A stretch of 64,000 bases of DNA. It comes from an uncultured Clostridia bacterium (lineage in GTDB: Bacteria > Bacillota > Clostridia > TANB77 > CAG-508). Made by a program: the position numbers and the translations under genes. Numbering within the stretch: the stretch's first letter is position 1; each line of letters opens with the position of its first letter. The notes under the pieces are model-generated. The model made no database searches. It was not told where the DNA came from and was given only the letters and a program-made list of their open reading frames with translations. The stretch is from positions 1 through 64,000 of the forward strand of contig CANQPY010000001.1 in the NCBI GenBank assembly GCA_947625835.1, read 5' to 3'. Positions 32,094 to 35,160 of the stretch are shown piece after piece.

Positions 32094-33743
32094 ATGGGTA
32101 GGAAACCTAAACAAATACCTCAAGAATCATTATGGGGTGAAGAATTTAATTTACCACCACCTCAAGAAGAAGTAAAAAAAGTATTGAAAAAAGTAAATGA
32201 TAAAACAGATGCCCAAAAAATCAAATCTAAATTAACACCACTATCAGAGAAAATAGAAATTATTTCCCAAAATGTACATAAAGTATTAGGCCATTACAAA
32301 GACCAAATGGTAGTAATTAGGGATAAAGAAACCTTCCATAATTACATTAGTGCGGCTATTGAGCAAGGAATAATTGCTATAGATACTGAAACAGACAATA
32401 CAGTTGATACAGTGGCTTGTACTTTAATGGGTTTGGTTATATATACTCCAGGCCAAAAAAATGGATATGTGCCTGTACACCATGTAGATTATGTAACAAA
32501 TGAACTACTCCCAAACCAACTAACAGAAAAAGATATAAGAGAAGAACTAAACAGATTATTAGACAATAACACATATATAATAATGCACAACGCGATATTC
32601 GATATTCAAGTTATTTATACTACATGTGGTGTTTTCCTTCCATGCCACTGGGATACAATGGTGGGCGCAAGATTATTAAATGAGAATGAAAAATCATCAG
32701 GCTTAAAATATCAATATATAGATAAAATTGACCCTAACCAGCAAAAATATTCGATTGAGGAACTATTTGAAGGCTTATCATATGCTATTTTTCCTCCAGA
32801 ATTGTTTGCATATTATGCCTCAACTGATGGATATATGACCTATAAACTATATGAATATCAGGTAGAAGCATTTAAGGACCCAGAACAAGCAGGAATGTTT
32901 AGGATATTCAGAGAAACAGAAATGAATATCATTCCTATCTTGGCCAAAATGCAATTAAAAGGTGTAGCTTTTGACCACGATTATCAAGCACGACTATCTA
33001 AAAAATATAATAAAATATATGAAGAATGTGATGCTTTAGTAATGGAAGAACTACACAAATTTGATGATATAGTAGCCAAATGGAGATTAACACCAGAGGC
33101 TAATTACAAACCTCTCAATAGAAAGGGGGATGGGTTTAATAAATCCAAAAATGAGCAATTAGAAGATCCAATTAGTGCAGATTCACCCACGCAACTAGCA
33201 ATATTGCTATATGACATATTAAAAGCACCTGTAGTATCTAAAGATAAGCCAAGAGGTACAGGGGTAGAAGAACTAAAAGCTTTACAAGCCAAGCTAAATT
33301 TACCTCTAATAGATCTCATATTAAAGAAAAGAAATATTCAAAAATTACTAAATACATTTGTAGATAAACTACCTGGAGATGTAAGTAAAGTGGATGATAG
33401 AGTTCATGCAAGCTTCGGTTCTGTCATGACTGACACGGGCCGTTTCAACTCTTCATCGCCTAATTTGCAAAATATTCCCGCTAAGAATAAAGAGATTCGT
33501 TCAGTTTTTTGTGCAGGTAGAGCACAAGAAATAGAAAAAATATTTGATGGTTTCTTACATCTATATGATTATGATGAAGTAGAAACCCAAAGAGGTTGGG
33601 TAAAAGCAAAAGATCTAAAAACAACAGATTCATTGGTAGTAGAAGATGGCATCCTTAAAATTGCGTCTATTAGAGATCTAAATGGTATAATTCAAGTGTT
33701 CCCAGAAGAGGAAGAAAATAAAGGAGTGGAACATGCAGCATAA
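32094..33743 (+). CDS. DNA polymerase I (family A), N-terminal polypeptide: 3'-5' exonuclease and part of polymerase domain
   Basis: GIIAIDTETDNT...IIMHNAIFDIQVI exo motifs; SFGSVMTDTGRFNSSSPNLQNIPAKNKEIRSVF polymerase region; ends before motif A. Confidence 0.85.
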   Translation: MGRKPKQIPQESLWGEEFNLPPPQEEVKKVLKKVNDKTDAQKIKSKLTPLSEKIEIISQNVHKVLGHYKDQMVVIRDKETFHNYISAAIEQGIIAIDTETDNTVDTVACTLMGLVIYTPGQKNGYVPVHHVDYVTNELLPNQLTEKDIREELNRLLDNNTYIIMHNAIFDIQVIYTTCGVFLPCHWDTMVGARLLNENEKSSGLKYQYIDKIDPNQQKYSIEELFEGLSYAIFPPELFAYYASTDGYMTYKLYEYQVEAFKDPEQAGMFRIFRETEMNIIPILAKMQLKGVAFDHDYQARLSKKYNKIYEECDALVMEELHKFDDIVAKWRLTPEANYKPLNRKGDGFNKSKNEQLEDPISADSPTQLAILLYDILKAPVVSKDKPRGTGVEELKALQAKLNLPLIDLILKKRNIQKLLNTFVDKLPGDVSKVDDRVHASFGSVMTDTGRFNSSSPNLQNIPAKNKEIRSVFCAGRAQEIEKIFDGFLHLYDYDEVETQRGWVKAKDLKTTDSLVVEDGILKIASIRDLNGIIQVFPEEEENKGVEHAA

Positions 33744-35160
33744 AATAAAAATTAGAAAACCAGAAAAGAAACTAGTTGGGGGTGATTAAATGAAGTCCCT
33801 ATGTGTAGAGATATGCATAGGTATCCCATTGAATTGCTGGAAACTCCTAACGTAAAGCCGAGGACAACCAGCAGCCAAGCCTCTTTACTGAGGAAGGTTC
33901 AACGACTATCTCGCAAGAGAGTAGAAAGTAAGTACTTTCGAAGTGGTGGGTATCCATAATAAATGGATAAAGATATAGTCTAAACACCTGTGAAAATAGG
34001 TGGGGATAAAAATAATTATCCCATTATAGTGTAACGAACTATAATAAATGCATGTGTTCTCTCAACTAGAAGTAAAAACTGCAGTCTATAGTTCCAATGA
34101 TCCTGACATGCGTAAGACATATGAAGATGGTCTAGACTTGTATTCATTAGTTGGTTCCATGGCATATAATAAAAAATATGAAGAATGCTTGGAATTTTAT
34201 CCTGAAGGAACTGAACTAGAAATAGAAGGTAAAAAAATAGTTTGCGGGCGAAAAGAAATAACTAACGAAATTGGAAAAAAATATCGTCAATCTTCAAAAT
34301 CTATTCTGATAGGTAGTATATATCAAAGAGGTGTTCCCTCTATTGCTGAACAAATAAAGAAAACCCCAGAAGAAACAAAAGAAATAATGGATAATTTCTA
34401 CAAGGGTTTTCCTACCATGACTAAATGGTTTGAGGATAGTAAGAAATTTGCTTTAAAATATGGATACATGGATAATGCGGTTGGCAGAAGAAGAAGACTG
34501 CCTGCAGCATTGCTCCCCAAATATTCCATTACTACCTCAGTAACATCAGGTTCAGAAGGTTTTAATCCATTACTAGGGTGCAGCAACAAAATAGATACCA
34601 CTTTAATTGATAAATATAGAAAAAAATTAGAAGAAAGAGAATTCATATCTGCTAAAGATTATGAAGAGATTAAAAAGCAGGCAAAAGCTGAAGGTGTGGA
34701 GATTCACAATAATGGTGGACTGATAGCACAGGCGTTGAGGCAGTGTGTAAATTTCCAAGCTCAGAGCTTGGGCGCGGATATAGTCAAATTCGCAATGATT
34801 TTAGCAGATAAAGATCCAATTCTTAAAGATCTTGGTTTTGAAATGTTAATCCAAGTCCATGATGAGCTGATTGGTGAATGCCCTGCAGAAAATGCAGATA
34901 AAGTAGCAAAAAGATTATCAGAATTAATGTCCTCAACTGCGGAAAAAATGACAGATAATATTCCTTTTCCGGTAGATTGTTATGAAGTAAATAATTGGTA
35001 TGAAGATGAATTAAATACTTCTCTTCAAACACTGATGATGCATCATAAAGAACTATCTCAAGAAGACTTATATAAATTAGCATGTGAAGAACACCAAGAA
35101 TTACTTCCAGAAGCTATCCATGATGTAATATTTGAGGGAAAAGAATTAAGAATTTCTTAG
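33733..35160 (+). CDS. DNA polymerase I, C-terminal polypeptide, join(33733..33786,34057..35160)
   Basis: AAAGGAG-N6-ATG33733 gives MQHKIKIRKPEKKLVGGD|FSQLEVK across the intron; then FYKGFPTMTKWFEDSKKFA, VNFQAQSLGADIV, IQVHDELIGECP. Confidence 0.75.
33787..34056 (+). ncRNA. Group I self-splicing intron (270 nt, no ORF)
   Basis: Core-like elements AATTGCTGGAAACTCC, GGTTCAACGACTAT ... AAGATATAGTCT (P7 strands), terminal hairpins CACCTgtgaaaatAGGTG, GGGATAAaaataaTTATCCC, TATAGTgtaacgaACTATA; U before 5' site, G at 3' end; splicing restores GGD|FSQ. Confidence 0.88.

Follow-up and report, generated by a model that had tools for sequence, protein, structure and literature searches.

How does a phage make a family A DNA polymerase from a gene that is broken in two just before the catalytic motif A? 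This question is raised by a gut-phage polA gene in the 64,000-nucleotide stretch of DNA analysed here (the window). The first-pass annotation described the gene as two overlapping ORFs and proposed a two-subunit PolA, with a single +1 frameshift or a one-nucleotide assembly indel as the alternative. That picture holds in part: the split itself and the two separate starts are supported, the motif A peptide is not contiguous as had been assumed, and an intron, a Hint-like tail, a downstream endonuclease and a wider family of similarly broken genes had been missed. We consider it very probable that the phage makes PolA in two pieces as the outcome of an endonuclease-cassette insertion, and that these pieces would assemble after splicing of the intron.

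The broken polA gene of the window

Pfam matches on both halves bear out the assignment to the family A DNA polymerases (Table 1). The N-terminal ORF (DNA_pol_A_exo1, 1.6e-12; DNA_pol_A, 2e-25 over residues 348-478; PHROG DNA polymerase, 4.7e-61) contains the 3'-5' exonuclease, the thumb and the palm as far as IRSVFCAG, followed by the Hint-like tail, and it ends, as annotated, with EEEENKGVEHAA and a stop codon. The C-terminal ORF was rightly placed at ATG33733, in a different frame and with AAAGGAG 6 nt upstream, and it does overlap the N-ORF stop, as ATGcagcaTAA. The catalytic Asp is residue 18 of the C-ORF (GAT, 33784-33786), as had been noted; the start-to-Asp distance is thus 17 codons, and split C-ORFs in the family start 14-17 codons upstream of this residue. 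The second exon of the C-ORF (DNA_pol_A, 2.3e-34) aligns with the PolA proteins of the Streptococcus phages Dp-1 and MS1, the nearest named phages, in which polA is a single unbroken gene. The window PolA aligns with both, HDE motif included, and has the DNA_pol_A and exonuclease domains and the motifs A, B and C of a phage PolA.

The peptide MQHKIKIRKPEKKLVGGD/FSQLEVK had been read as one piece, but a TAA lies directly 3' of GAT and FSQLEVK begins only at 34057. The interval is a group I intron that interrupts the motif A codons GAT/TTC (RF00028, 89.1 bits, E 1.9e-21, span 33774-34002 including flank). Its splice sites, GAT^TAA...GTG^TTC, are supported because the IGS GAAGTC (33792-33797) is complementary to the ligated exons GAU/UUC, the 5' site showing the customary U-G pair. 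At the sequence level the intron has the conserved core, the P1 U-G at the 5' site, P10 and the terminal G of its class. Motif A must, on this prediction, be restored by splicing (GAT/TTC), and the spliced C-ORF has 18 + 367 = 385 aa. When sequences closely akin to the beginning of the intron were sought, only unrelated ones came up, and no near relative carrying the same intron was found.

Table 1. Features of the polA locus in the window, and candidate stop-hop sites of related loci
Feature	Position	Strand	Basis or content
PolA N-terminal ORF, 549 aa	32094..33743	+	Pfam and PHROG matches
Hint/intein-like tail, ~75 aa	33519..33740	+	tail alignment, profile, AF2, Foldseek
Shine-Dalgarno AAAGGAG of the C-terminal ORF	33720..33726	+	sequence; duplex energy -8.3 kcal/mol
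C-ORF exon 1, MQHKIKIRKPEKKLVGGD, overlapping the N-ORF stop	33733..33786	+	final codon encodes Asp of motif A
Group I intron, 270 nt, without endonuclease ORF	33787..34056	+	RF00028; IGS pairing
C-ORF exon 2, remaining PolA palm and fingers, 367 aa and stop	34057..35160	+	
Free-standing homing endonuclease, 652 aa	35343..37301	+	phrog_3339 3.8e-83, phrog_559 1e-61
Candidate stop-hop loci (motif A)			L001, L021-L025, L031, L035, L036, L038, L043, L063, L064, L067
Candidate stop-hop loci (motif A), continued			L070, L102, L104, L105, L107, L108, L111, L115-L117, L120, L130
Hop site of L043			GAC UUU UCU UAG UCU CAA CAA
Hop site of L070			UCU UAG UCU GCG
Hop site of L022			UCG UGAGU UCG CAA
Hop site of L036			GAA UAGCCU GAG CCA

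Recurrence of the break in related phages

Searches of IMG/VR and GTDB yielded 94 related loci. With the window C half as a single protein, the IMG/VR search found no relative; a four-row alignment (A1) used as the query recovered relatives that this search had not. Nearly all host-family matches were short and resembled cellular PolI, the strong ones being two (G122 and G289). In many loci polA is plain, with 34 nt from IRxxF to motif A, and other loci carry an insert, either contiguous or split. The conservation check suggested by the first-pass annotation came out in favour of the split: more than 20 independent metagenomic phage relatives show the same break with a strong Shine-Dalgarno sequence (SD), the break is therefore not a product of chance, and several broken loci were assembled identically in different metagenomes. 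The C-ORF SD averages -9.9 kcal/mol in broken loci, compared with -8.3 in the window and -0.1 to -5.8 in unbroken genes; one broken locus, L031, has no standard start codon at the C-ORF start position. As in genes split by endonucleases, there are two independently startable ORFs, and unbroken homologues exist. Such homologues had been named beforehand as a reason to abandon the split. They do not refute it, because broken genes are mixed with unbroken ones across the tree, a pattern that a mobile cassette would be expected to leave. In a quickly built tree of the C halves, where the window sits on a long branch, the window is the sister of a plain gene (L006, support 99), the split L105 is the sister of the plain L051 (support 100), and the combination of split and bypass requires at least seven changes, on the starred branches.

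Relative to plain PolAs such as those of Dp-1 and MS1, the tail of the N half is an insert of about 75 codons after IRSVFCAG. A profile of 21 tails compared with PDB chains matched an intein-like domain first (E 0.001) and then the gp41-1 intein (0.02); the AF2 model of the tail has a confident all-beta core (pLDDT ~90 over residues 21-70), and its top nine Foldseek matches are all inteins (E 0.05-0.27). The resemblance covers the first ~55 residues of Hint domains. Each of these lines is weak by its E-value, and together they are consistent with a Hint/intein-like tail. No conserved intein Cys1 (Cys or Ser at position 1) was found among the 21 aligned tails. In L014, an unbroken gene that keeps the insert, the model shows the insert (~501-572) as a domain rich in beta structure immediately ahead of motif A (mean pLDDT 87). 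It should also be mentioned that another intein-like element lies close to the TGR motif, 5' of the split, in the polA genes of L130 and L117, and that this insert is large in L130.

An endonuclease region lies between the halves in eight relatives. Four carry a GIY-YIG endonuclease (L024, L064, L067 and L115; Pfam) and L001 a LAGLIDADG one (a Pfam match slightly below the cut-off), and the regions of L021, L031 and L116 were judged by eye from the sequence. The window has no endonuclease at this place. Its only one is the free-standing gene that begins 182 nt downstream of the C-ORF (DUF7487, HTH and MTES_1575-like REase domains); it may be a partner in the split, though nothing ties it to the break.

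Candidate stop-hops in motif A

In 23 split relatives, counted as distinct by sequence difference and not by event, a stop codon stands immediately 3' of the motif A residues DFS/DYS (21) or SAQE (2); the coding sequence picks up again 2-9 nt further on, at the next expected residue and usually at a re-pairable codon (Table 1). Several of these sites recur identically in separate contigs. The parts of a T4 gene 60-type bypass are all present at the 23 loci, namely a take-off codon, an adjacent stop, a gap and a matching landing codon, and the relatives also have an RNA stem-loop at the take-off, in the form of a covarying hairpin. The sites have the following features: (i) the stop directly adjoins the take-off codon in every case; (ii) where the take-off codon encodes Ser, the landing codon is UCN in 15 of 21 sites (p ~1e-16 against base composition), the others mostly matching at positions 2-3, and the third base of the landing codon suits the tRNA of the take-off codon (permutation, p 3e-4); (iii) the Ser take-off codon is UCU, UCG or UCC in 21 of 21 sites, compared with 17 of 52 unbroken genes (p 3e-8), and 35 of the 52 unbroken genes have UCA or AGY at this position; and (iv) the bases just 3' of the start codon pair with GAC UUY UC, forming a hairpin that ends in the take-off codon. 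The pair adjoining GUC/GAC is formed in 20 of 21 hairpins, by A-U, U-A, C-G, G-C and G-U types (p<5e-6), native arms are more stable than swapped ones (-11.0 vs -7.5 kcal/mol, p 5e-5), and in the two loci with a GAA take-off codon (L021 and L036) the arms shift along with that codon. The permutation tests make no correction for relatedness, but the sites are divergent. No genuine PolA site turned up in control scans that looked for stops 3' of a motif A with GAT or 3' of Ser codons of the AGY type; the Ser take-off hop sites are therefore specific to GAC plus UCN, which fits the hairpin.

A reading of the motif A stops as TAG=Q was rejected. It would add at least 2 residues in the in-frame cases, and it fails where the frame changes; moreover, two phages that appear to read TAG as Q (L035 and L063, with 4 and 5 in-frame TAG codons in their PolA C-ORFs) have TGA (UGA) or TAA (UAA) as the motif A stop. 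In the stop-bearing relatives whose C half could be traced, the downstream frame is open. The 23 elements are thus strong candidates for natural stop-hop bypass, and we infer from their sequences that a short ribosomal hop over the hairpin-plus-stop probably takes place in most of the cassette-bearing relatives. The window lacks this element: its sole stop in motif A is intronic, and the spliced motif A is open. In other words, in the window the intron stands in place of the stop-hop element found in relatives.

The hop element is present in 8 of 8 endonuclease-bearing loci, compared with 13 of 24 without endonuclease (p 0.03), as self-protection predicts. Two near relatives, L064 with both endonuclease and bypass and L044 with neither, differ in motif A by exactly 12 nt, a clean insertion of TCCTAGCGGAAA in L064.

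Origin of the split and its place among known systems

For the window, we suppose that a homing-endonuclease cassette at some time entered the palm hairpin, just before motif A, where it would have left the Hint-like tail and a stop on the N half and provided the C half with a separate SD and start. The endonuclease would subsequently have been lost from the break. The N and C pieces would be translated independently, the group I intron would be spliced out, joining GAT/TTC, and the 549-aa and 385-aa polypeptides would assemble into one active enzyme. A broader reading also seems to us likely, although well short of certain: a mobile cassette, made up of the Hint-like tail, stop, endonuclease, SD and start, and hairpin with stop-hop, would have split phage PolA repeatedly at its active site, and would give the first natural stop-hop family. 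Ribosomes would hop 5-12 nt over the stop by re-pairing of the peptidyl-tRNA, guided by the hairpin refolding behind them; the hop sequence would shield the allele from the endonuclease; and the window would represent a derived state, a break without endonuclease and with a group I intron in motif A.

Two separately initiated polypeptides are the best-supported reading of the locus, given the recurring split, the strong SDs and the endonucleases between the halves. The short overlap, its +1 offset and the upstream SD, an element able to stimulate frameshifting (PMC5009743), might instead suggest that ribosomes pass from one ORF into the other where ATG and TAA overlap (33733-33743), by a programmed +1 frameshift or by a hop, and so make a single fused polypeptide. 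However, homologous junctions without endonuclease show all three offsets (0, +1 and +2), so that no single frameshift explains the junction, and in some loci an endonuclease region of ~0.7-1 kb separates the halves. A single programmed frameshift was rejected on these two grounds; the SD is also positioned for initiation and the start-to-Asp distance is conserved, and we regard fusion as improbable. The window rests on one MAG contig, which leaves room for a sequencing or assembly indel, or for decay of an ordinary PolA into a pseudogene. This is very improbable, because the identical architecture occurs in many independent assemblies, the N-ORF reads across its own SD as other broken genes do, the intron core is undamaged and each half is still conserved enough for Pfam to recognise it. 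The +1 frameshift or one-nucleotide indel raised by the first-pass annotation becomes unlikely once the break is seen to be conserved across relatives, and the scattered distribution on the tree, which is what a mobile cassette would give, likewise argues against sequencing error or a single frameshift.

In fractured genes that carry split inteins the order is gene, endonuclease, gene, which the present layout recalls, and the tail resembles the first part of a Hint domain. Protein trans-splicing of the two halves by a split intein is nevertheless hardly credible: besides the missing nucleophile at position 1 in the 21 tails, no more than ~10-14 residues precede the extein on the C side, where a His-Asn block and a +1 nucleophile are also lacking, and contiguous insert-bearing PolAs hold the domain in frame without splice junction residues. 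Intein splicing was accordingly rejected, neither the position 1 nucleophile nor the block B TxxH, the C-terminal His-Asn or the +1 nucleophile having been found. As for the stop-bearing relatives, their stop and extra bases might be dead-allele mutations or insertion remnants with no ribosomal hop. The landing Ser codon could then copy the original codon, and an insertion of a few nucleotides would guard against the endonuclease even if it killed the gene. We consider this unlikely in view of the open downstream frames, the invariably adjacent stop, the UGA or UAA in both TAG-recoded phages, the restricted take-off codons, the third-base compatibility and the covarying hairpin pair described above.

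In phage T4, gene 39 is split by a homing endonuclease and gene 60 is left with a 50-nt bypassed insert, which may be a degenerate intron and may protect from cleavage (PMC5009743). As at T4 gene 39/mobA/gene 60, an essential replication gene would here have been split by an endonuclease insertion, with a new downstream gene that has its own start; in the relatives, as in gene 60, the take-off codon lies shortly behind the new start and has a stop directly after it, with a stem-loop upstream and a landing codon that allows re-pairing. By this analogy the PolA family would display the same trio of split, endonuclease and bypass. The T4 gene encodes a topoisomerase and has a 50-nt gap, whereas the present family involves a family A polymerase, several endonuclease families, a Hint-like tail, gaps of 2-9 nt and one hairpin that includes the take-off codon, and the window has an intron, not a bypass. 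Enzymes in pieces with an endonuclease insertion are likewise known from gene 43 (43A/43B) of Aeromonas phages 25/44RR and nrdA of Aeh1, and the split 43A/43B PolB of phage 25 and NrdA of Aeh1 remain active; these are a family B polymerase and a reductase, with no Hint-like tail, hairpin or stop-hop described (PMC2988022). Self-splicing group I introns occur in conserved DNA polymerase genes of phages, e.g., in Bastillevirinae (PMC11878797), whereas the window intron lies inside motif A of a PolA already split into two ORFs. Stop-hops have been seen in synthetic Escherichia coli constructs and mitochondrial byps, imperfect matches being tolerated in mitochondria, and a 2016 review knew of no natural in-frame stop hops (PMC5009743). 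The PolA candidates share with them the matched codons flanking a stop and the short gaps, but are natural, phage-borne and located in a split PolA, with a covarying hairpin. A literature search of partial coverage found no earlier description of the PolA cassette. The split polA would be a natural two-piece family A polymerase, and the cassette supports the generality of endonuclease cassettes that carry a bypass sequence for self-protection.

To our knowledge, programmed bypassing in bacteria and phages has been studied well essentially in T4 gene 60 alone, with a few other candidates known. With 23 divergent candidates that combine variable gaps, matched codons and a covarying hairpin, the rules of bypassing could be read from evolution and tested by small reporters.

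Other insertions were observed in the polA genes of relatives. L048 (2262-2510), L079 (~3866) and L094 (~4637) have inserts directly 3' of DFS, with a common start ending in GTTGGCTGAAGT. Rfam at the gathering threshold called no introns in these three; in a permissive scan the L048 insert is a group I intron exactly after DFS (E 5e-9), at the position of the hop point in other phages, and the L094 insert gave a weak match. A second insertion point is the motif GRFSSSxPNL/QNIP, where L001 has a group I intron (Rfam, 1060-1293) after PNL; L042 and L063 have an insertion upstream of QNIP, in L042 with a LAGLIDADG-like ORF. Finally, the PolA C-ORFs of L102, L107, L115, L120 and L130 stop ~76-84 codons past motif A, which suggests a further intron or insertion downstream.
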